Of a stretch of 64,000 nt of DNA, positions 17,941 to 28,258 are shown piece by piece. The notes beneath the pieces are model-generated. The model searched no databases, was not told the DNA's origin, and was given only the letters and a program-made list of their open reading frames with translations. A program made the translations under genes and the position numbers. Location of the stretch: positions 248,001 through 312,000 of the forward strand of contig NZ_VFAC01000002.1 of NCBI RefSeq assembly GCF_007644105.1. The letters run 5' to 3'. Position 1 is the stretch's first letter. Every line of letters begins with the position of its first letter. This stretch comes from Elioraea rosea (GTDB lineage: Bacteria; Pseudomonadota; Alphaproteobacteria; Acetobacterales; Acetobacteraceae).

Positions 17941-18764
17941 GACAGGTTCTCCGCACCGCCGGTTCCGACCCGGGCAGAAACGGCTTCGAGATCGGCCGGA
18001 CCCGGGCGGATCGGGGCCGCGAGCCACCGCATTCCGCGCCTCTGGCGCACGGTCACATCAATGCGGCTCGCGCCGACATCGACGAGATTGTAGCTGTTGC
18101 CATGGCCATCGTGCCGATGCGACAACGACGAGCCGGAGACGATCTGCGGTGGAAGTCCTCGCCCCTGCTCGAGCATCAGCGGGCGATGAAGATGCCCGGC
18201 AAGGATTGCCACAACGCCCGTTCGCCCGAGCGTCGCCCGGAGCGCACGGCTTCGTCCGAGTGGGCGTCGATGCGCTGCCCAATCCGGATGGACGGGCGGA
18301 TGGTGGAGCGCGAGCACCACTCTGCGCGCCCGGCGCTCCGTGCGCGCCGAGACGATGCTGGCAATTTGCTCGTGCGAGATCCTGCCAGCCGACCAGTCGA
18401 GATGCGCCGCCATGCGGCGCACGGTGTTCAGGCCGATCACCAACGTGTCGCCGAGTGCAATCATGCCTTCGGTGGACGGGCTGAAATAGGCATGCCACCT
18501 CCCGAATGGGTCGCCGAAGCGGGCGAGCAGATCATGTGCGGGGATGTCATGATTGCCCGGCACGGCGAGTACCGGAAGGCCCAAGCCATCGAGGAAGCGG
18601 CGCGCCGCGGTGAACTCATCCGCTTGCGCCCGCTGCGTCAGGTCGCCGGTGACGACGACGGCATCGGCGCCCTGCTCGCCGAGGTCCTCGGCAAGGGATG
18701 CATCGAGCCCGTTTTCCACAGTTCCGAAATGCAGGTCAGACAGGTGTGCGATGCGCCCGGTCAC
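17937..18764 (-). CDS. Calcineurin-like metallophosphoesterase
   Basis: A 275-residue dinuclear-metal phosphoesterase. The metal-binding blocks are present in order: SDLHFG (10-15), VVTGDLTQ (38-45), VPGNHD (67-72), ALHHPP (about 150) and LAGHLHRP (about 190). This resembles CpdA-like and other cytosolic phosphodiesterases. The start overlaps the lipid kinase stop by 4 bases and the stop overlaps the AI-2E gene, so three genes form one operon (kinase, phosphoesterase, transporter). The phosphorylated substrate is unknown; with a lipid kinase upstream, a lipid phosphate is conceivable but only inferred. Confidence 0.88.
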   Translation of the reverse strand: MTGRIAHLSDLHFGTVENGLDASLAEDLGEQGADAVVVTGDLTQRAQADEFTAARRFLDGLGLPVLAVPGNHDIPAHDLLARFGDPFGRWHAYFSPSTEGMIALGDTLVIGLNTVRRMAAHLDWSAGRISHEQIASIVSARTERRARRVVLALHHPPVHPDWAAHRRPLGRSRALRATLGRTGVVAILAGHLHRPLMLEQGRGLPPQIVSGSSLSHRHDGHGNSYNLVDVGASRIDVTVRQRRGMRWLAAPIRPGPADLEAVSARVGTGGAENLS

Positions 18765-19693
18765 GCAGCCCGTCCCGGAACGAGGACGTGACAGGTCTCA
18801 TGCGCGACCTCGAACTGGAGCGGCGGTGGCATCAGGCACATCTCGCCGTCCAGCGTGAGGCGCAGGTGCCCCGTGCGCGAGAGGACGGAGAGCCGCGGCA
18901 GGATGACGCGCTCGACGGCAGGCGCCTCGCCGAACCGCCCGCGGAACCATCGCCAGGCCTGGAGCGCGCCCATCATCACGCCCGATCGCGTCACCGCATC
19001 GGCGCGGAGCCCACCGTCTTCCTGCGGACCGGGGACGGTGACGACCGCAGCGACCGCATCGCGACGCCAGCCGTCGGGACCGATGAGGCGTATCCGCCGG
19101 CGGCGGAGCGGGCGCCCGAGTGCGCGCAGCGCGCCAACGAGGAGCTTGAGCCAGTTCTCACCCGGCTTCCGCTGCAGCTCGCGCAATCGCGCAAGCCGTG
19201 CCGGGCGCCCGATGAGGGATTGGTAGAGGAAGATCCGTCCGTTCACGGTGCCCACCGTCAACGCCGCACGCTTCGCAGTTGATAGAGATTCAACAGCGGC
19301 AATCGGGTCGTCGGGGAGGCCAAGGCGGCAAGCGAGGCGATTCATCGTTCCGCACGGCAGGATGCCGATGGGAATGCCCGTCTCTGCCAGCGACCGTGCC
19401 ACAGCAGAGACGGTTCCGTCTCCGCCCGCCACGATGACGGCGTCAGGATCCGCGCCAAGGATCGCAGCGAGCTGCTCCTCGAGGGGCAGATCAGGCTTCG
19501 GCGGGGTTGCGAGGGCAAAGCCGTGATCCTCGAGCGCTACCGCGAAGGCGGACGCACCATCCTGCCGCTCTGCGAGGCCGCGCGCGCGCGCGTTGACCAC
19601 GAGCCCCACGCGCAGCGCACCCTCACGCGGTGCGGCGCCGCTGCGTTGAACCGCAACCGGTTCCGTCGCGCGCGGATGCGCAAGACTGGGCAT
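18761..19693 (-). CDS. Diacylglycerol/lipid kinase family protein (YegS/DgkB-like)
   Basis: A 310-residue kinase of the DAGK catalytic family. It has VVNARARG near the N-terminus and the nucleotide-binding VAGGDGTVSAVA with the GGDGT signature, followed by GIPIGILPCGTMN. It would phosphorylate a lipid such as diacylglycerol or a sphingoid base at the inner membrane. The start at 19693 has GGAGAGGAGC upstream; a GTG two codons earlier is possible. A much longer upstream frame (to 20245) crosses DUF1328 on the same strand and was rejected. An EcfG-like promoter sits at 19749-19773. Confidence 0.85.
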   Translation of the reverse strand: MPSLAHPRATEPVAVQRSGAAPREGALRVGLVVNARARGLAERQDGASAFAVALEDHGFALATPPKPDLPLEEQLAAILGADPDAVIVAGGDGTVSAVARSLAETGIPIGILPCGTMNRLACRLGLPDDPIAAVESLSTAKRAALTVGTVNGRIFLYQSLIGRPARLARLRELQRKPGENWLKLLVGALRALGRPLRRRRIRLIGPDGWRRDAVAAVVTVPGPQEDGGLRADAVTRSGVMMGALQAWRWFRGRFGEAPAVERVILPRLSVLSRTGHLRLTLDGEMCLMPPPLQFEVAHETCHVLVPGRAA

Positions 19694-19748: not shown

Positions 19749-19773
19749 AACGCCGAGAGGCGCGATTGGTTGC
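19749..19773 (-). promoter_or_regulatory. EcfG-type promoter of the lipid kinase operon
   Basis: Minus strand: GCAAC, a 16-base spacer, CGTTG. There is one mismatch to GGAAC-N16-CGTT. The -10 element lies about 56 bases before the kinase start codon. It would place the kinase, phosphoesterase and AI-2E-type genes in the general stress regulon. Confidence 0.6.
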
Positions 19774-19911: not shown

Positions 19912-20076
19912 TCACGCGGCTCCAACGAAGCCGGTGACGAGGGAGACGACGAGAAGGATGAGAAACACGACGAAAAGCACCTTCGCGATACCCGCGGCGG
20001 CGGAGGCAATCCCACCGAAGCCGAGGATGCCCGCGATCAGGGCAAGGATGAAGAAGAGCGCCGCATAGCCGAGCAT
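19912..20076 (-). CDS. DUF1328 (YtjA-like) small membrane protein
   Basis: A 54-residue protein beginning [16 protein letters not shown] and ending TGFVGAA. It has two hydrophobic segments (about 4-28 and 31-50), matching the DUF1328 family of small inner-membrane proteins, often stress-induced in alphaproteobacteria. The ribosome binding site is CAGGAGG seven bases before ATG. It is short and easily missed. An EcfG-like promoter lies 37 bases upstream and a strong terminator follows, so it is a single-gene unit. Confidence 0.88.
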
Positions 20077-20112: not shown

Positions 20113-20137
20113 AACGTGGCGTGCATTGCCCGGTTTC
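20113..20137 (-). promoter_or_regulatory. EcfG-type promoter of DUF1328 gene
   Basis: Minus strand: GAAAC, a 16-base spacer, CGTTG. There is one mismatch to the EcfG consensus. The -10 element is about 37 bases before the start codon. Confidence 0.6.
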
Positions 20138-20278: not shown

Positions 20279-20476
20279 TCAGAGCGTATCCTCCCAGGAC
20301 TTCACCTGGCGCTCGGCCTCGTCCTTGGCGATGCCATATCGCTCCTGGATGCGGCCGATGAGCTGCTCGCGCTTGCCGTCGACGACCGTCAGGTCGTCGT
20401 CCGTGAGCTGGCCCCACTTCTCCTTCACCTTGCCGGTCATCTGCTTCCAGTTGCCGGAGACCCTGTCCCAGTTCAT
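20279..20476 (-). CDS. CsbD family stress protein
   Basis: A 65-residue hydrophilic protein. MNWDRVSGNWKQMTGKVKEKWG followed by a GKREQLIGRIQERYG block is the CsbD pattern (small stress-induced proteins of unknown biochemical role). GAGGAG precedes the ATG by 7 bases. An EcfG-like promoter sits upstream. The gene lies next to phyR on the same strand but is separately promoted. Confidence 0.9.
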   Translation of the reverse strand: MNWDRVSGNWKQMTGKVKEKWGQLTDDDLTVVDGKREQLIGRIQERYGIAKDEAERQVKSWEDTL

Positions 20477-20524: not shown

Positions 20525-20551
20525 AAAACGCCGGCGCGGCGCACCGGTTGC
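20525..20551 (-). promoter_or_regulatory. EcfG-type promoter of the csbD-like gene
   Basis: Minus strand: GCAAC, a 16-base spacer, CGTTTT. There is one mismatch to GGAAC-N16-CGTT. The -10 is about 50 bases before the start codon, between phyR and csbD. Confidence 0.65.
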
Positions 20552-20573: not shown

Positions 20574-21293
20574 TCACACGATCGGCACGGAGCTGGTGGT
20601 CGTTGCCTGGTAAGTGGCGATCGCGAGCGCGCGCGGCTCGAACGGCTTGCTGATGATGAAGGTCGGCTCCGCGCCCCGTGCGGTCAGCAGGCGCTCCGGG
20701 TAGGCGGTGACGAAGATCACCGGCACGCGCATCGACTTCTGGATGCGCGCGACGGCCGCGCTGCCATCGCCGCCTCTGCCGAGATTGATGTCGGCGAGGA
20801 TGAGCCCGGGCTTCTTCTCGGTCGCGAGACGGACGGCCTCGGCCTCGCTCGCGGCGACTCCCACCACCCTGTGCCCGCACGCCTCAACAAGGCGGCGGAC
20901 GTCCATCGCAATGATCGGCTCGTCCTCGATCACGAGAACGTCCGTCGCCGCCGTCGCGCGCAGCGCCGCCCGCGCCTCCTCGAGCTCGCGGCCAGCCTCC
21001 TCGCCGGACAGGCCGACGACCTGGCCAGCCTCGTCGATGGTGAGGTCCTCGAGCGCGGTCAGGAGAAGGAGCTGCCTCTGGCGGGCCGACAGTCCCTGGG
21101 CGTCCGGTCGTTCTGGCGCCCGCTCGGTGATTGCGGCATAGAGCGCGAGCCGCGGCTCAAGCGGCGGCAGGTCGCCCCGAAGCGCTTCCGCAACGAGCCC
21201 ATCACCTGCTTCCTGCGAGCCGGTGAGCGCTCGCGCGTAGCGGCGCGCCATCGGCAGGGTGCGCACGAGGATGTCGCGACTAGACTCGGTCAT
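20574..21293 (-). CDS. phyR: General stress response anti-anti-sigma factor PhyR
   Basis: A 239-residue protein with an N-terminal ECF-sigma-like domain (about 1-115, including ALTGSQEAGDGLV and LTIDEAGQVVGLSGEEA) and a C-terminal receiver domain (about 118-235). The receiver has acidic residues in VIEDEP, phosphoacceptor Asp168 in LILADINLG and the Lys of IISKPFEP. In alphaproteobacteria, phosphorylated PhyR binds NepR and frees the EcfG sigma factor. The start at 21293 is set by GGAGG seven bases upstream; an in-frame upstream extension has no such site. It is divergent from the first ECF sigma gene and close to nepR. Confidence 0.95.
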   Translation of the reverse strand: MTESSRDILVRTLPMARRYARALTGSQEAGDGLVAEALRGDLPPLEPRLALYAAITERAPERPDAQGLSARQRQLLLLTALEDLTIDEAGQVVGLSGEEAGRELEEARAALRATAATDVLVIEDEPIIAMDVRRLVEACGHRVVGVAASEAEAVRLATEKKPGLILADINLGRGGDGSAAVARIQKSMRVPVIFVTAYPERLLTARGAEPTFIISKPFEPRALAIATYQATTTSSVPIV

Positions 21294-21348
21294 CTTGGTT
21301 CCTCCGACAGACGGCTTACGTGTAACCGCCATGGCACTGCATCGCCCA

Positions 21349-21378
21349 TCACCGAAAGCACCCCGTTCACCGAAAGCA
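21349..21378 (+). repeat. 12-bp direct repeat before the first sigma gene
   Basis: TCACCGAAAGCA occurs at 21349-21360 and again at 21367-21378, 18 bases apart start to start, in the phyR/sigma intergenic region. The second copy runs into the proposed ATG. The spacing could suit a DNA-binding protein, but chance or a small duplication is equally possible. Confidence 0.5.
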
Positions 21379-21887
21379 TGGGGAGAATGACGGGCTCCTC
21401 GGCCACGTTCCGGCAAGGGCTCATCGAGCTGATGCCCAGGCTGCGCGGCTTCGCCCGCTTCCTGGCGAAAGATACCACCGCGGCCGACGACCTCGTGCAG
21501 GATGCACTGTTGCGCGCGCTCGGGGCCGAGGCAAGCTGGCAGCAGGGAAGCGACCTCGCCGCGTGGATGTTCCGCATCCTGCGCAACGCGTTCTTCGAGG
21601 AACAGCGTCGCAAGCGACGCCGCAGCATGACGATCATCTCCCATGACGGCGATGGCGAGGGCGCGATGGAGCCGAGGGTCGAGGCCTCGCAGCACGCGGC
21701 GAGCGAATTGTCGGCGCTCGACGAGGCGATCCGCGCCCTGCCACTCGGCCAGCGCGAGGCGCTGTTGCTCGTCTCCGCCCAGGGCTTCTCGGTCGGGGAG
21801 GCCGCTGCGATCTGCGGCGTGCCGGAAGGCACGATCAAGGCGCGGATATCCCGCGCGCGCGCAGTCCTGCACCGCCGGTTCGGCTAG
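21378..21887 (+). CDS. ECF sigma factor, EcfG-like (first copy)
   Basis: A 169-residue sigma factor. Region 2 is LMPRLRGFARFLAKDTTAADDLVQDALLRAL with AAWMFRILRNAFFEEQRRKRR. Region 4 is ALPLGQREALLLVSAQGFSVGEAAAICGVPEGTIKARISRAR. It resembles the EcfG/ECF15 group controlled by NepR. Two starts are possible, ATG 21378 or 21387; neither has an ideal ribosome binding site. It is divergent from phyR. The second sigma gene 240 bases downstream is the one coupled to nepR, so this copy may be an accessory sigma with overlapping or distinct promoters. Confidence 0.88.
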   Translation: MGRMTGSSATFRQGLIELMPRLRGFARFLAKDTTAADDLVQDALLRALGAEASWQQGSDLAAWMFRILRNAFFEEQRRKRRRSMTIISHDGDGEGAMEPRVEASQHAASELSALDEAIRALPLGQREALLLVSAQGFSVGEAAAICGVPEGTIKARISRARAVLHRRFG

Positions 21888-21992
21888 GCCACGTCACGTC
21901 GTGCACAGTGAGCAGCATATCGCGATGAATCTCATGGGTTTGGCCGACATCATGCCGGGGCTCTCGCCCGCCGGACATGGCGGCCCGAGAAG

Positions 21993-22017
21993 GGAACTCC
22001 GGCGGGTCTCACCGGTT
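21993..22017 (+). promoter_or_regulatory. EcfG-type promoter upstream of the second sigma gene
   Basis: GGAAC, a 16-base spacer, GGTT. The -35 is perfect and the -10 has one mismatch (CGTT expected). It is about 110 bases before the GTG start of the sigma-nepR-kinase operon. EcfG operons are often autoregulated, which supports it. Confidence 0.5.
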
Positions 22018-22126
22018 GCCCCTATTCTATGCATACCTGTCTTGCGTCACACGCATTGGTCCGAGGCAACCGAATTGCCGCGCCGATCATTTGGCCTGGC
22101 ATCGAGGCAATCGTTTAGGTGACATC

Positions 22127-22837
22127 GTGAATCTGACCGCGACCGACCAGATCTCCGCAGAGCGTCCCAGCGCGGATCGCTGCGTGGCCGAAGGGGCGAC
22201 CGCGACGACGACTTCGCGCAACCGCAACGCAAACCGAGCCTCCGAGGGCGAGTTCCACTCGCTTCTCGTCGCCACGCTTCCAGCGCTGCGCCTCCAGGCC
22301 TTGGCGATGACGCGAAACCGCGCCGACGCGGACGACCTCGTCCAGTCGGCCGTGGTCAATGCACTTTCGGCGCAGGGCCAGTTCGAGCAGGGCACGAATT
22401 TCGGCGCCTGGATGTATCGCATCTTGCGCAACCGCTTCCTGTCGGACCGCCGCCGCGCCAGGCCGCACACCGACATCGAGGACGCACCTAGCGCAGCGTT
22501 CGCCCGTCCGGCCACGCAGGACAGCGGCCTCGTGATGGCGGAGCTGCAACAGGGCCTTGCCCGCCTGCCGGTCGATCATCGTGTCGCCCTCGTGATGGTC
22601 TCTGTAGAAGGCAAGTCCTACGAGGAGGTGGCCGCGACGCTCGGCTGCCCCGTTGGCACCGCGAAATGCCGTGTCTTCCGCGCGCGGCGCCAGCTCGAGG
22701 CCTGGCTGCTCGGCGAGGACGAGAAGCCGAGCCGCAGCGGCCGCGCCATCGGTGCTCGCAAAACGGCACCGATTTCCACTAAGATCACGGACTCGCGAGA
22801 CGCACGGCTGAAGGAGCCGTTGAGCTGTAGGACTTGA
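22127..22837 (+). CDS. ecfG: ECF sigma factor EcfG (nepR-linked copy)
   Basis: A 236-residue ECF sigma factor. After a ~45-residue N-terminal tail, region 2 has LPALRLQALAMTRNRADADDLVQSAVVNAL and GAWMYRILRNRFLSDRRRAR. Region 4 has LPVDHRVALVMVSVEGKSYEEVAATLGCPVGTAKCRVFRARRQL. A ~45-residue tail follows. GTG at 22127 has AGGTGA six bases upstream; more upstream sequence is open but not protein-like. The stop shares a base with the nepR start, so the sigma and its likely anti-sigma are translationally coupled. It should direct transcription of stress genes from GGAAC-N16-CGTT-like promoters. Confidence 0.88.
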   Translation: MNLTATDQISAERPSADRCVAEGATATTTSRNRNANRASEGEFHSLLVATLPALRLQALAMTRNRADADDLVQSAVVNALSAQGQFEQGTNFGAWMYRILRNRFLSDRRRARPHTDIEDAPSAAFARPATQDSGLVMAELQQGLARLPVDHRVALVMVSVEGKSYEEVAATLGCPVGTAKCRVFRARRQLEAWLLGEDEKPSRSGRAIGARKTAPISTKITDSRDARLKEPLSCRT

Positions 22838-23070
22838 TGACCGAACAGAACGACAGGAAGGGAACCGACCCGGGCCGCGAGACGCCGACCACGGCGTCCG
22901 CGGCGCGCGGCTCTCCGGGCGGTCCGAAGAAGATGGCGGCGGATTCCGCTTTCGACTCCTGGCTTCGCGGCAAGCTTCACGCGATCTTCGATGGCGTCGC
23001 GCAGGAGCCCTTGCCCGATGAGCTCATCCGTCTGATCGAGCAGGATCGCGACCGGAACGAGAAGAAATGA
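22837..23070 (+). CDS. nepR: Anti-sigma factor NepR
   Basis: A 77-residue protein. The C-terminal half carries the NepR core: FDSWLRGKLHAIFDGV, then EPLPDELIRLIEQ. NepR binds EcfG and is removed by phosphorylated PhyR. The ATG at 22837 overlaps the sigma stop by one base, and the stop overlaps the kinase start by 4 bases. The N-terminus is low complexity and presumably disordered, as usual for NepR. Confidence 0.92.
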   Translation: MTEQNDRKGTDPGRETPTTASAARGSPGGPKKMAADSAFDSWLRGKLHAIFDGVAQEPLPDELIRLIEQDRDRNEKK

Positions 23071-24812
23071 CCTCCGGAACAGGCCCCTCGGCAAGGACCG
23101 AGGCGCCGCCGGGGAGATGGTCCTCCGGCGTTCGTGCGCGGCTTCTCGTTCTCGTCGCCGCGGCAACGATCCCCGTTCTTGGCATCGCCGGCGCCAATGC
23201 CTGGAACGAGTACGAGAACGCGCTCTCCCGCGCGAGCCGCGAGGCCCAGGTCTTCGTCGAATCGGCCGCAGGCCGGCAGGCCGCATCGTTCGACAATTTG
23301 CAGGAACTGGTCGAGTCGCTCGCGGGTCGCCAGGATCTTCTGGCGCGAGACGCGGCGTCATGCGACAGCGCGCTCGGCGAGATCCATGCCCTGTTCCTTC
23401 AACGGTACACCAACATCTGGATCCTGAATCCGGCCGGCTACACGGTTTGCAGCGCACTAACGGCGCCGCGCGACATCGCCTACACCGATCTCGACTACTA
23501 CCGCTCGGTGTTGGCGGAGGATCACTTCGTCCTCGGCGGGTTCATGAACGGCATCATCTCGGGCCGGCCGGTCATCACCGGCGCCGCCCCGATGCGCAAC
23601 GATTCCGGGACGCTCATCGGGATCGTGGGGGCCGCGCTTCGCCTCGATATCCTGTCGAACGAGAATCGGGCGTTCCCGGCGAGCGACGAACATGGGCTCT
23701 GGCTGCTTGACCGGGCCGGCAAGGTCCTGGCGCTCAACCAGGCGCCGGACAGCGAGCTTCCGCCCCCTGACATCCTCGTCGCCGCGTCACTGACAGGCTC
23801 TGCCACATTCTCCGGACAGGGGCGGGACGGCCGGGGCTACGCCTGGTCGATCGCGGCGCTCGAGCCGAATGTGCGCGTGCTGGGCAGTGTCGCCACGGCG
23901 GAGGTCGAGCGCGAGGCGCGCGACCGCCTCGTCGCGCGTGCGATCGAGCTCGGCCTGTTCCTCACCGCCTGTATCCTGGCCGTCATCGCTGGCGTGGAAC
24001 TGACCGTCGCCTGGCCACTGCGCCGCCTTGCCTCTGCCGTCACCGGCTGGGCGCCTGGGCAGGCCTTCACCGCGCCTGACACCGCCTTCCGCCCGCGCGA
24101 GGTGGCCCGGCTGTCCGACGCGCTGTCGGCCGCATCGGCGGCGATCGCCGAGCGCGAGAGCGCGTTGCGCGCGGCGCTGGAGCAGCGGGACCTGCTGATG
24201 GCCGACATCCATCACAGGGTGAAGAACAACCTGCAGATCGTCGCCTCGCTCCTCAACCTGCAGGCTGATCGTGCGCGCGAGCCTGGGGCTAGCGCGGAGT
24301 TCGCCATGGCGCGCGAGCGCGTGCAGGCGCTGGCGACGTTGCACCAGCATCTCTACATGCGCCGGAACTACGAGCAGGCCGATCTCCGGCCGTTCCTCGA
24401 CGATCTGTGCCGCCAGCTCTCGGAAACGCTCGGAGCCGATCGGCGCAACAAGGTGACGATCGACATCAAGGTCGAGGATATCGCTCTGCCATCGGACCAG
24501 GCGATCTCGCTCGCACTCCTGATGACAGAGGCGGTGAGCAACGCGATGCGCCACGGCTTCGCCGATGGCAGGCGCGGCACGATCCGGGTATCGCTCCGGC
24601 GCGATGGGGAGAAGGCGATCCTCGAGATCGCGGATGACGGCGTGGGCATGGCGGAGCCGACGGCGAATGAGGGGCTCGGCCTGTTCCTGATCCGCGGCTT
24701 TGCGGCGCATCTTGGCGGCGAGCTCGAGATGGACACCGAGCAGGGCACGCGCATCATCGTCGAATTCCCGATCCCGCAGGATCAGGACGAGCAGCGCCTC
24801 GAAGCAGCCTGA
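23067..24812 (+). CDS. Membrane HWE/HisKA_2 sensor histidine kinase, probable general-stress kinase
   Basis: A 581-residue kinase. There is an N-terminal membrane helix (about 25-47), a long extracytoplasmic sensor region (about 48-290) resembling a Cache fold, and a second helix (about 292-312). A HisKA_2 dimerisation domain follows with the phospho-acceptor block DIHHRVKNNLQIVASLLNLQ (His about 387), then a HATPase domain with EAVSNAMRHG and DDGVGM. Kinases of this class (PhyK-like) phosphorylate PhyR. Coupling to nepR by ATGA makes it the prime candidate for the PhyR kinase. The signal is not predictable. Confidence 0.9.
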   Translation: MTSGTGPSARTEAPPGRWSSGVRARLLVLVAAATIPVLGIAGANAWNEYENALSRASREAQVFVESAAGRQAASFDNLQELVESLAGRQDLLARDAASCDSALGEIHALFLQRYTNIWILNPAGYTVCSALTAPRDIAYTDLDYYRSVLAEDHFVLGGFMNGIISGRPVITGAAPMRNDSGTLIGIVGAALRLDILSNENRAFPASDEHGLWLLDRAGKVLALNQAPDSELPPPDILVAASLTGSATFSGQGRDGRGYAWSIAALEPNVRVLGSVATAEVEREARDRLVARAIELGLFLTACILAVIAGVELTVAWPLRRLASAVTGWAPGQAFTAPDTAFRPREVARLSDALSAASAAIAERESALRAALEQRDLLMADIHHRVKNNLQIVASLLNLQADRAREPGASAEFAMARERVQALATLHQHLYMRRNYEQADLRPFLDDLCRQLSETLGADRRNKVTIDIKVEDIALPSDQAISLALLMTEAVSNAMRHGFADGRRGTIRVSLRRDGEKAILEIADDGVGMAEPTANEGLGLFLIRGFAAHLGGELEMDTEQGTRIIVEFPIPQDQDEQRLEAA

Positions 24813-24878: not shown

Positions 24879-24956
24879 TTATAGAACGCCGAAGATGTTC
24901 AGCGCGATGATCAGGACGATAGGCACGCCGAGCAGGTAGAGAATGATCGACTTCAT
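24879..24956 (-). CDS. 25-residue hydrophobic membrane peptide
   Basis: Reads MKSIILYLLGVPIVLIIALNIFGVL: a single transmembrane segment ending at a TAA stop. A good ribosome binding site (GAGGAGAG) precedes the ATG. An EcfG-like promoter lies upstream on the same strand, divergent to the DUF883 gene. Similar tiny hydrophobic proteins are common in alphaproteobacteria, without known function. The promoter and binding site make a real gene likely despite its size. Confidence 0.65.
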   Translation of the reverse strand: MKSIILYLLGVPIVLIIALNIFGVL

Positions 24957-25005: not shown

Positions 25006-25030
25006 AACGCCGGCGGCTCGGCATGGTTGC
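25006..25030 (-). promoter_or_regulatory. EcfG-type promoter of the 25-residue peptide gene
   Basis: Minus strand: GCAAC, a 16-base spacer, CGTTC. There is one mismatch to the consensus. The -10 is about 50 bases before the start codon. Confidence 0.6.
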
Positions 25031-25053: not shown

Positions 25054-25078
25054 GCAACCGCAGGCTCGTTCGGGCGTT
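25054..25078 (+). promoter_or_regulatory. EcfG-type promoter of the DUF883/YqjE unit
   Basis: Plus strand: GCAAC, a 16-base spacer, CGTTC. There is one mismatch. The -10 lies 33 bases before the DUF883 start. It faces away from the promoter at 25006-25030, giving a divergent stress-controlled pair. Confidence 0.6.
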
Positions 25079-25111
25079 CTCGAGGCACACACGCTCCAAC
25101 AGGAGATCATG

Positions 25112-25378
25112 ATGGCCAGTTCCTCTTCCAATACCGAGTGGTCTGCTGAGGCCGAGATCGCCGAGCTCCGCCGCAAGGTGGAAGCGCTGATGAACGACCG
25201 GGTGGCGCCGGCTGTCTCCGAGCTGGCGGGTCGCGCCGAAGGTGTGGCTCAGCACGCCGTGTCGACGGCGCGTCGCGAGACCGAGCGCGTCGGCCAGGCG
25301 GTGCGTGACCAGCCCATCGCCGCGCTCGCGATGGCCGCGGCAGCGGGCTTCCTCGTGGCCCTGCTGGCCCGACGCTAA
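25112..25378 (+). CDS. DUF883 (ElaB/YqjD-like) membrane-anchored protein
   Basis: An 88-residue protein: a charged, probably coiled-coil region (AEIAELRRKVEALMNDR, then RRETERVGQAVRDQP) followed by a C-terminal anchor (AALAMAAAAGFLVALLARR). This is the ElaB/YqjD layout; those proteins bind ribosomes at the membrane in stationary phase in E. coli. The second of two tandem ATGs is preferred because AGGAG is then six bases away. The YqjE-like gene follows three bases after the stop, the same neighbour order as the yqjDE pair. Confidence 0.82.
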   Translation: MASSSSNTEWSAEAEIAELRRKVEALMNDRVAPAVSELAGRAEGVAQHAVSTARRETERVGQAVRDQPIAALAMAAAAGFLVALLARR

Positions 25379-25819: not shown

Positions 25820-26968
25820 CTACGCTGTCCGATGCGGCATCGAAGGAGCCTGATCACTCGGTATCGTCACGGTGACGCGCGCGCCGCCGGCTTCACTGGC
25901 GGCCAGAGCGAAGTCGCCTCCGAGACGCCCCGCCATAGCCTGCATCACGACGAGACCGAGACTGTCCTCGGGAAGGTCAGGGCGCAGCCCCACCCCGTCA
26001 TCCTCGACGGCAAGAACGAGCGCATCGCCGCTTGGGCCGATCGAGATTCGCAACCGCCCAGTATCCCGGCCGACGAAGCCATGCTTGGCGGCATTCGTCA
26101 CCGCCTCTGCAATGATCAGGACCGCTGCATTCAGTCCCGCCGGACCACCAAGCCTGAGGAGGTCGGACATCGTGACATCGAGCGCGATGCCGCCCGGTCC
26201 GACGACGTAGCCGCGTGCCGCGAGCAGCCCTTCCGCCACGTCCTTCACCAGCGCGGCAAACCCGTCCTCCGTCATCGCCGGGTCATGCAGCCTGCGGTGC
26301 AGCCCAGCCATGGTGCGAAGCCGCTCCGAGCCATCGGCCAGGGCGTCGGCAGCCTCGGCCCACGCAACTCGCTCGGCCTGCAGCGACAGAAGACTTGCCA
26401 CGAACTGCAGCGCGTTGGCATTGCGATGCTGCACCTCGGTCAGGGCCGCGCGCTCGGCGGAGAGGCGCGCCTCCTGATGCGCCCGCTCGGCCGCGAGAGC
26501 CCGCCGCGCTGCGACAAGCGCTTCGACGAGCAGGACCTGCGCGGAGGCGAGCAGGGCAAGGCAGCCGACGTCGATGATCGTCTCCGCCGATTGAACCCAC
26601 CAGTGCAGCTCGGCGGCTCCTTGGGGGACCTCCGGCCTCGTGGCGATGAAGAGCCCGATGCCGGCGACGGCCAGGACCGAAGCAGTCACCAGGCCAGACC
26701 AGAAACCCGCGAGCGCGATGGCCGCGAAGAGCGCCACAAGCGCAGGCCCGAGCATCGACTCCCGCGAGAGGAGCGGCGCGAGGCAGGCCACGGCGAGCAG
26801 TCCCACCGCGACCGCGCAGAGCGACGGAAGGCGAAGCCGCTGCAAGGCAACGCGGACTGGAATGGCCTCTCTCCCCTGTTCGGCGGAACGTGCTCTATAC
26901 CGGTGCCGGAACCGATCTTCATTAACCTGTGATAGGTCTGCACATGCGCGCAGCGACGCTCGATCCAC
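25820..26968 (-). CDS. Membrane HWE/HisKA_2-type sensor histidine kinase (second copy)
   Basis: A kinase of up to 382 residues. The N-terminal part has several membrane segments (LCAVAVGLLAVACLAPLL, ALVALFAAIALAGFWSGLV, ASVLAVAGIGLFIA), a DUF4118-like layout. A HisKA_2 block follows with EVQHRNANALQFVASLLSLQ (His about 199) and a HATPase with EAVTNAAKHG and EDDGVGL. The start is unclear: GTG at 26968 is the longest, and TTG at 26845 would start just before the first membrane helix. No receiver domain is adjacent; PhyR 5 kb away is a plausible partner by family. Confidence 0.85.
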   Translation of the reverse strand: MDRASLRACADLSQVNEDRFRHRYRARSAEQGREAIPVRVALQRLRLPSLCAVAVGLLAVACLAPLLSRESMLGPALVALFAAIALAGFWSGLVTASVLAVAGIGLFIATRPEVPQGAAELHWWVQSAETIIDVGCLALLASAQVLLVEALVAARRALAAERAHQEARLSAERAALTEVQHRNANALQFVASLLSLQAERVAWAEAADALADGSERLRTMAGLHRRLHDPAMTEDGFAALVKDVAEGLLAARGYVVGPGGIALDVTMSDLLRLGGPAGLNAAVLIIAEAVTNAAKHGFVGRDTGRLRISIGPSGDALVLAVEDDGVGLRPDLPEDSLGLVVMQAMAGRLGGDFALAASEAGGARVTVTIPSDQAPSMPHRTA

Positions 26969-27693
26969 CCTTCCCGTGCACGCACTGCCCGCTCCGGCCC
27001 CTGCCGGGGTTCATCGATGGGTCGGCCGAGGAACGGACGTTCATCGCGCGCCGCAAGCTCGGGCAGCTGCATGTCGTGGCCGGCGGCACGATCCTGCCGG
27101 AAGGCCAGCCGGCCCAGTACATGTTCACGCTGCTGTCAGGCTGGGCCTTCCGCTACAAGACGCTGAGCGACGGAAGGCGGCAGATCATGAACGTGCTCCT
27201 GCCGGGAGACCTGGTGGGGCTGCAGTCGCACATGCTCGACAGCCACAGGCACAGCGTCGAGGCGCTGACGGATGTCTCGCTCTGCACCTTCGGCCGCGAG
27301 ACGGTCTGGGCGATCTACAAGTCGCACCCGCCGCTCGGCTTCGCGCTCACCTGGCTTGCCGCGCACGAGGAACGCCTCGTCGACGATGCGATCCTGTCCG
27401 TGGGGCGACGGTCGGCGGTCGAGCGCATCGCCGCACTCATGGTGCACATCTTCAAGCGCGCCGAGGCGGCGGGGCTGAAACAGGGCGACGCCATTCCATT
27501 CCCGCTGACGCAGGAGCACGTTGCCGACGCGCTGGGGCTTTCGATCGTGCACACCAACCGGACGATCCAGCACCTGAGGCGCGCAGGCCTGATCCGCCTC
27601 GCCGATGGAACGTTGTCGATCGGCGACCTCCGGGCGCTCCGGCGCGTGGCGCTCTACTGGGAACAGCCGGCGGAGCCGCGGCCGCTGTTCTGA
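26944..27693 (+). CDS. Crp/Fnr family transcription regulator
   Basis: A 249-residue protein with a cyclic-nucleotide-binding-like fold (about 25-145) and a C-terminal winged helix with recognition helix region EHVADALGLSIVHTNRTIQHLRRAGLI. The N-terminus has PCTHCPLRPLP: only two cysteines, so not the four-Cys iron-sulfur set of true FNR. GTG at 26929 is an alternative start. It overlaps the 5' end of the divergent kinase gene if that begins at 26968. The effector is unknown. Confidence 0.86.
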   Translation: MRAATLDPPFPCTHCPLRPLPGFIDGSAEERTFIARRKLGQLHVVAGGTILPEGQPAQYMFTLLSGWAFRYKTLSDGRRQIMNVLLPGDLVGLQSHMLDSHRHSVEALTDVSLCTFGRETVWAIYKSHPPLGFALTWLAAHEERLVDDAILSVGRRSAVERIAALMVHIFKRAEAAGLKQGDAIPFPLTQEHVADALGLSIVHTNRTIQHLRRAGLIRLADGTLSIGDLRALRRVALYWEQPAEPRPLF

Positions 27694-27723: not shown

Positions 27724-27748
27724 GCAACCCCGCCGGACCGCCAGCGTT
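27724..27748 (+). promoter_or_regulatory. EcfG-type promoter of the PRC-barrel gene
   Basis: GCAAC, a 16-base spacer, CGTTG. There is one mismatch to GGAAC-N16-CGTT. The -10 lies 49 bases before the start codon. Confidence 0.62.
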
Positions 27749-27796: not shown

Positions 27797-28258
27797 ATGA
27801 GCACACGTCTTCCGCTCGCCCGCATGACGCTCGCAGCCGGCCTCATGGCGGCGCCGATGCTCGCCTTCGCCCAGGCCCCCGCCACGCCGGCCTCCCCCGC
27901 CATGCCCGCTCCGAGTGCGACGCAGCCTGCGACGCCGACGGCGCCGATGGCCACTGCACCTGCCACCCGGATGGGCCCCGCAACGATTCGCGCCTCGAAG
28001 GTGATCGGCGCGAACGTCTACAACGAGCAGAACGAGTCGATCGGCGAGGTCGAGGACCTGGTCATCCCCGCGGGACAGGGCCCGATGCTCGCCGTGGTGT
28101 CGGTCGGCGGATTCCTCGGGATCGGCGAGAGGCTCGTCTCCGTTCCGATGAACGAGCTGCGCTGGAACGCCGAGCGTGAGCGCTGGTCGCTCGCGGGCGC
28201 CACCAAGGAGAGCCTGAAGAACCGCCCGGAGTTCCGCTACGAGGACCGCCGCGGCTGA
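27797..28258 (+). CDS. Secreted PRC-barrel domain protein
   Basis: A 153-residue protein. The signal peptide (about 1-25, ending AFAQA) is followed by a Pro/Ala/Thr-rich linker (26-62). The PRC-barrel core is then IRASKVIGANVYNEQNESIGEVEDLVIP to LVSVPMNELRW. Such periplasmic PRC-barrel proteins are common in alphaproteobacteria, often stress-induced, with no defined activity. The ATG at 27797 follows GAGGGAG. An upstream promoter and a downstream terminator make it a single-gene unit. Confidence 0.88.
   Translation: MSTRLPLARMTLAAGLMAAPMLAFAQAPATPASPAMPAPSATQPATPTAPMATAPATRMGPATIRASKVIGANVYNEQNESIGEVEDLVIPAGQGPMLAVVSVGGFLGIGERLVSVPMNELRWNAERERWSLAGATKESLKNRPEFRYEDRRG

Follow-up and report, generated by a model that had tools for sequence, protein, structure and literature searches.

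A two-sigma general stress locus with a shifted promoter consensus across the Acetobacteraceae

The canonical alphaproteobacterial general stress response (GSR), e.g., the PhyK-PhyR-NepR-SigT system of Caulobacter with its EcfG (ECF15) sigma factor, combines a phyR gene divergent from the sigma operon with a nepR gene and an adjacent HisKA_2 kinase, and csbD and PRC-barrel genes are among its targets. Extra EcfG-like sigmas, some of which are not bound by NepR, are known as SigT/SigU of Caulobacter, EcfG1/EcfG2 of Sphingomonas, EcfG1-6 of Methylobacterium, and EcfG1/EcfG2 of Rhizobium etli, and their role is termed unresolved in the literature (PMC3892343, PMC4814048). In Sphingopyxis granuli TFA, two EcfG sigmas belong to one locus: the first is coupled to nepR and has a GSR promoter, and the second is located near phyR and has none (PMC7083833). 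The gene set of the canonical system and the placement of the two S. granuli sigmas recur in the locus described here, which lies in a 64,000-nucleotide (nt) stretch of the Elioraea rosea genome (assembly GCF_007644105.1, contig NZ_VFAC01000002.1, positions 248,001 to 312,000; in the following, the window). It is a real, family-wide, rewired form of the known partner switch, with two sigma factors beside a single NepR and a promoter consensus that differs from the canonical one.

Gene content and conservation of the locus

The locus comprises the following genes (window coordinates):

20574-21293, minus strand: phyR, anti-anti-sigma response regulator with a short sigma-like domain and a receiver domain (PF22029 and PF00072)
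21378-21887, plus strand: sig1, ECF (extracytoplasmic function) sigma factor related to EcfG (ECF15), divergent from phyR (Sigma70_r2 and r4_2)
22127 (GTG)-22837, plus strand: sig2, second ECF sigma factor, EcfG-like and coupled to nepR (Sigma70_r2 and r4_2)
22837-23070, plus strand: nepR, anti-sigma factor (PF18557 below the cut-off, family profile)
23067-24812, plus strand: phyK-like sensor kinase gene (dCache_1, HisKA_2 and HATPase_c)

An earlier reading of the sequence alone (the sequence-only reading) had proposed that phyR faces sig1 and is followed by an overlapping sig2-nepR-kinase operon, and this layout was confirmed: 84 nt separate the starts of phyR and sig1, the gap between sig1 and sig2 measures 239 nt, sig2 ends with a TGA (22835-22837) whose last base is also the first of the nepR ATG, and the nepR stop overlaps the start of the kinase gene by four bases (ATGA). 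Its view of the segment as a general stress locus was supported as well, two different EcfG-like sigmas being encoded there together with a single NepR and a PhyK-like kinase. PhyR exceeds the cut-off of the NCBIfam PhyR model NF006623 (252 bits; cut-off, 240), and its AlphaFold2 model (predicted local distance difference test score of 93) has PhyRs as its best PDB matches, the highest template modeling score (0.71) being obtained with the NepR-bound PhyR 4qic. The closest solved structure by sequence is, for both sigmas, the EcfG (RpoE) of Bartonella in complex with NepR (5uxx); a fold search with the Sig2 model returned an ordinary ECF fold, to which SigH and EcfG are about equally near. NepR stays below the Pfam threshold (21.2 bits with PF18557; cut-off, 25.7) but reaches 91 bits with a family-specific profile in which the window protein itself is included, and it contains the core motif LHxxFDxVAxEPxPxELxxLI. 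A search of the genome with the Pfam model and the family profile yielded this NepR as the only one. The predicted kinase is PhyK-like and not filed as PhyK, with an alignment spanning almost the whole NCBIfam PhyK model NF051872 at 213 bits, i.e., below the equivalog cut-off of 750.

The two-sigma locus is family-wide and not a local oddity. The four core genes phyR, sig1, sig2, and nepR, in the order phyR<>sig1-sig2-nepR(-phyK), were present in 94 fetched loci across the Acetobacteraceae, and the gene arrangement is therefore far beyond chance; five further loci contain phyR, sig2, and nepR but lack sig1 (both counts include some genomes present in more than one copy). Among the 60 genomes searched around the window, most of those with a close PhyR have the same gene order, and in the family-wide search 104 of 150 genomes yielded a sig1-like match. 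The locus is shared by named relatives that include Neoroseomonas, Pseudoroseomonas, Roseomonas, Plastoroseomonas, Roseococcus, Rhodovarius, and Sabulicella, and Sig2 is 55 to 69% identical to the copies in the named roseomonads. PhyR and NepR of the two-sigma loci are of a distinguishable type as well: the sigma-like domain of PhyR is shorter than in canonical loci, and the core of their NepR begins with FDxWL, a feature shared with locus L064 from another family. Other Acetobacteraceae have a canonical single-sigma locus (phyR/nepR-ecfG) instead.

The distribution of sig1 provides natural experiments. In two genomes of one genus (G030 and G140), Sig2 is the only EcfG-like sigma genome-wide, with phyR, nepR, and phyK kept at the locus, and in a third genome (G069) the locus is divided in two, with phyR-sig1 on one contig and sig2-nepR-phyK on another. 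The sig2-nepR-kinase genes thus behave as a unit, from which sig1 is separable and dispensable. A locus with sig1 and nepR but without sig2 was not seen among the fetched loci, and sig2 is the better-conserved sigma (mean identity of 61% versus 51% for sig1).

Several observations concern neighboring or related genes. About 1 kb from phyK, a further HisKA_2 kinase is encoded (25820-26968, minus strand), which has hydrophobic segments at its N terminus and might represent a second input into PhyR; a relative is located near the locus of a genome from the same genus (L055). A gene for a CRP/FNR-type regulator (26944-27693, plus strand) adjoins the stress cluster. The genome of the window harbors a second, orphan PhyR (48% identical; G000:C28:24409-25116, corresponding to L321:16398-17123) near ClpS/ClpA-like genes, and neither a NepR nor an EcfG-like sigma was found beside it. 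The same-genus genome G001 encodes a third EcfG-like sigma (L320:3823-4410) close to a DUF892/YciE-like gene. The canonical single-sigma loci with GGAAC promoters (L209-L211, L215, and L068-L071) document two alternative stress loci within the Acetobacteraceae.

Promoter consensus and recognition helix

For motif statistics, near-identical copies were removed, and 86 of the 99 loci were kept. In a census of all 1024 pentamers located 16-17 nt before CGTT, GCAAC ranked first at the two-sigma loci (104 versus 13.5 expected) and GAAAC second (35 versus 7.0), and GGAAC ranked first at the canonical loci (51 versus 4.3). The canonical loci of Acetobacteraceae, which served as a same-family control, showed 20 GGAAC sites versus 1.8 expected and 4 GCAAC sites versus 2.1. 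The shift is most pronounced at two-sigma loci whose Sig2 carries a cysteine at helix position 172 (GCAAC, 90 versus 5.0 expected; GAAAC, 28 versus 2.0; GGAAC, 11 versus 5.0). No exact GGAAC-N15-18-CGTT was found in the window, where the sites outside the operon are distributed as follows:

20527-20551, minus strand: promoter-like GCAAC-N16-CGTT, upstream of csbD (20279-20476)
20113-20137, minus strand: promoter-like GAAAC-N16-CGTT, upstream of a DUF1328 gene (19912-20076)
19749-19773, minus strand: promoter-like GCAAC-N16-CGTT, upstream of a diacylglycerol-kinase-like gene (18761-19609)
25006-25030, minus strand: promoter-like GCAAC-N16-CGTT, upstream of a gene for a 25-amino-acid membrane peptide (24879-24956)
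25054-25078, plus strand: promoter-like GCAAC-N16-CGTT, upstream of a DUF883-like gene (25109-25378)
27724-27748, plus strand: promoter-like GCAAC-N16-CGTT, upstream of a PRC-barrel gene (27824-28258)

Five GCAAC-N16-CGTT sites are located in approximately 8 kb around the locus, compared with 72 GCAAC-N16/17-CGTT sites in the 4.49-Mb genome. The raw genome-wide counts of GCAAC and GGAAC are alike (72 and 74; backwards control, 31 each), and the promoter signal is therefore carried by position and not by number. Promoter position, defined as outside genes and <180 nt before a gene start, applied to 13 of 30 sampled GCAAC sites and to none of 30 sampled GGAAC sites of this genome (N16/17-CGTT; one-sided probability of about 2e-5 by our own arithmetic), and to 8 of 25 GCAAC sites without the five local ones; the underlying genes were called with a home-made and imperfect predictor that missed some of them, including sig1 in the window. 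Genes located 3' of GCAAC sites encode CsbD, ferritin-like (Dps-type), DUF326, DUF883-like, and PRC-barrel proteins, and those 3' of GAAAC sites encode DUF1328 and DUF3309 proteins and an RpoH-like sigma. Taken together, the predicted regulon as a whole is moved from GGAAC to GCAAC/GAAAC (-N16/17-CGTT). A class of particular genes served by GAAAC was considered and rejected, since csbD and DUF1328 are preceded by GCAAC in some genomes and by GAAAC in others. The site before the RpoH-like sigma gene (GAAAC-N17-CGTT; L283, G000:C10:61354) is a separate observation, according to which a heat-shock sigma may be under the control of the stress response.

The operon itself is preceded by a variant of the motif that is conserved across loci:

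22066-22091, plus strand: putative promoter of the sig2-nepR-phyK operon, GCAAC-N17-CATT

The exact form is present in the gap between sig1 and sig2 in 53 of 82 nonredundant loci, always 3' of the sig1 stop codon (0.1 in shuffled sequences), and it is kept in the absence of sig1 (Plastoroseomonas; G030 and G140). It is this site, and not the nearby GGAAC-N16-GGTT at 21993, that represents the conserved promoter. If GTAAC and CGTT forms are allowed, 70 of 81 loci have a site before sig2, compared with 7 of 81 before sig1 and 1 of 81 before phyR; the feedback consequently appears to run through sig2-nepR-phyK and not through phyR or sig1.

The -35 contacts of the sigmas offer a possible counterpart to the promoter shift. 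In Escherichia coli sigma-E, base -34 is contacted by S172 and T169, and T'-33 is contacted by F175 (PMC6713349); we mapped this numbering onto the EcfG-like sigmas via the shared GTxxxRxxRAR motif. The canonical EcfGs compared have S172 (100%) and N175 (78%), while Sig1 has A172 (98%) and S175 (86%), and Sig2 has either S172 (53%) or C172 (45%) together with F175 (97%). The residue opposite the changed base -34 is therefore itself altered nearly everywhere in Sig1 and in part of the family in Sig2, and the change at helix position 172 tracks the promoter shift, which is a correlation. Residue 172 of Sig2 as the sole determinant of the shift was ruled out, because serine and cysteine types both have GCAAC before sig2.

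Sigma phylogeny and control by NepR

In a careful tree of 77 sigmas (support given as paired values), the sig1 clade (100/97) is nested in EcfG as the sister of the canonical EcfG of L064 (99/84), and the sig2 clade (100/99) is placed outside EcfG by a branch with a support of 98/93. The approximately unbiased (AU) test rejected neither a position of sig2 within EcfG (P = 0.313) nor a common clade of sig1 and sig2 (P = 0.207), and beyond its own family the best genome matches of Sig2 (up to 47%) are mainly EcfG-like sigmas from Caulobacterales and other Alphaproteobacteria. Both sigmas have nepR and phyR in their neighborhood in the 94 loci, as is typical of ECF15, with GCAAC/GAAAC in place of the ECF15 promoter GGAAC-N16/17-CGTT. 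The assignment of both sigmas to the EcfG group holds for Sig1, which by its position in the tree is a true EcfG relative. The tree placement of Sig2 comes near to what the sequence-only reading had named as its refutation, a sigma clearly outside the EcfG group. Sig2 is labeled EcfG-like only, because the AU tests admit its EcfG membership (P = 0.31) despite the tree placement, and it may have originated by capture or by an old divergence. A tentative and somewhat doubtful scenario for the former is that the stress locus of an acetobacteraceal ancestor captured a non-EcfG ECF sigma, which took NepR over from the native EcfG, and that the whole stress regulon moved with it from GGAAC to GCAAC, with the native EcfG left as a dispensable companion.

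From the conserved architecture, the two sigma clades, the promoter shift, the change at position 172, and the loss of sig1 with the rest kept, all of which are observed, we infer the binding and transcription steps of a rewired PhyK-PhyR-NepR-sigma partner switch, and a switch with the NepR-controlled Sig2 as its core and Sig1 as a second input is our favored and fairly probable reading. The membrane kinase would phosphorylate PhyR, whose sigma-like domain would then take NepR, which in turn would free its translationally coupled partner Sig2. Sig2 would drive the stress genes via GCAAC/GAAAC-N16/17-CGTT and its own operon via GCAAC-N17-CATT, and Sig1, which is encoded beside phyR and mostly lacks such a promoter, would probably act on promoters of this class as well and provide a second input without autoregulation. 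The question whether NepR holds both sigmas or its coupled partner only, as raised by the sequence-only reading, can be answered in part: Sig2 must serve alone with NepR in genomes without sig1. Since G030 and G140 have no EcfG-like sigma other than Sig2 beside NepR, PhyR, and PhyK, Sig2 is very probably a client of NepR, and it is likely that Sig2 reads GCAAC. For Sig1, binding by NepR is an even bet; extra EcfG sigmas elsewhere are bound by NepR in some cases and not in others (PMC4814048), and either state is therefore conceivable here.

Several observations weigh against the favored reading. Position 172 is a serine in about half of the family, yet these genomes have GCAAC before sig2, and strong enrichment of GCAAC near their loci is confined to the sig2 promoter (CATT, 41 versus 6.3 expected; CGTT, 19 versus 9.7). 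Furthermore, the sigma-like domain of PhyR is slightly closer to Sig1 than to Sig2 (72 of 94 loci), which is not decisive, and the distances among NepR proteins correlate no worse with those of sig1 (0.66) than with those of sig2 (0.57), which is uninformative.

The main rival explanation is a two-tier cascade, in which a constitutive master Sig1 held by NepR switches on sig2-nepR-phyK under stress and Sig2 acts as an amplifier. We regard it as possible, if somewhat doubtful. The position of GSR-type promoters, mostly missing at sig1 and phyR and mostly present at sig2, speaks for such a cascade, and there is a precedent in S. granuli, where the constitutive EcfG2 near phyR drives the GSR-dependent nepR2-ecfG1 operon (PMC7083833); moreover, Sig1 is the EcfG relative and is closer to the sigma mimic domain of PhyR. 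However, G030 and G140 manage with Sig2 alone and the same promoter, and sig1 is the less conserved of the two sigmas. An ordinary duplication of EcfG, with sig1 and sig2 as redundant paralogues and without any special rewiring, is compatible with the AU test of the joint clade, but the free tree separates the two strongly supported clades, distinct recognition-helix residues have been kept in about 100 loci each, and the promoter shift is independent of the tree; we consider this explanation unlikely. Still less probable is a regulon divided between the sigmas by promoter variants, e.g., into GCAAC-CGTT, GAAAC-CGTT, and GCAAC-CATT classes, although three variants are enriched and the -35 helices of Sig1 and Sig2 differ. 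The same genes are preceded by GCAAC in one genome and by GAAAC in another, and GCAAC persists where sig1 is absent. The related possibility raised by the sequence-only reading, that GCAAC and GGAAC promoters are divided between the sigmas, was not supported and can be dismissed for this genome, in which none of the sampled GGAAC sites is in promoter position.

Comparison with known systems

Two sigmas have been kept beside a single NepR across a bacterial family, with natural sig1 deletions and a split locus at hand, and the clean promoter shift points to specific positions of the recognition helix. Two questions thereby become directly testable, namely, what a single anti-sigma factor does with two sigmas and in what way the promoter consensus of a regulon moves together with its sigma factor. 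Our literature search found no description of a two-sigma locus of Acetobacteraceae or of a GCAAC consensus, but most subscription papers were outside this search and a prior mention is possible. In Sphingomonas melonis, the consensus of EcfG targets is GGAAC, with single GCAAC sites among them (PMC6599016).

The canonical GSR differs from the present locus in having one sigma instead of two, the order nepR-sigma instead of sigma-nepR-kinase, GGAAC instead of GCAAC/GAAAC as the -35 element, a longer sigma-like domain of PhyR, and often a GSR-type promoter before phyR (10 of 15 canonical loci, with GGAAC, versus 1 of 81 here). In the multi-EcfG systems of Caulobacter, Sphingomonas, Methylobacterium, and R. 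etli, the extra copies are often located away from the phyR locus, and the accessible portions of the sources report no change of the -35 consensus (PMC4814048, PMC3892343). Another counterpart is the locus of S. granuli TFA, where both sigmas are assigned to ECF15 and share GGAAC-N16-CGTT, and where nepR2-ecfG1 is divergent from ecfG2 (PMC7083833); it is known from one strain, whereas the two-sigma locus of the Acetobacteraceae is family-wide.

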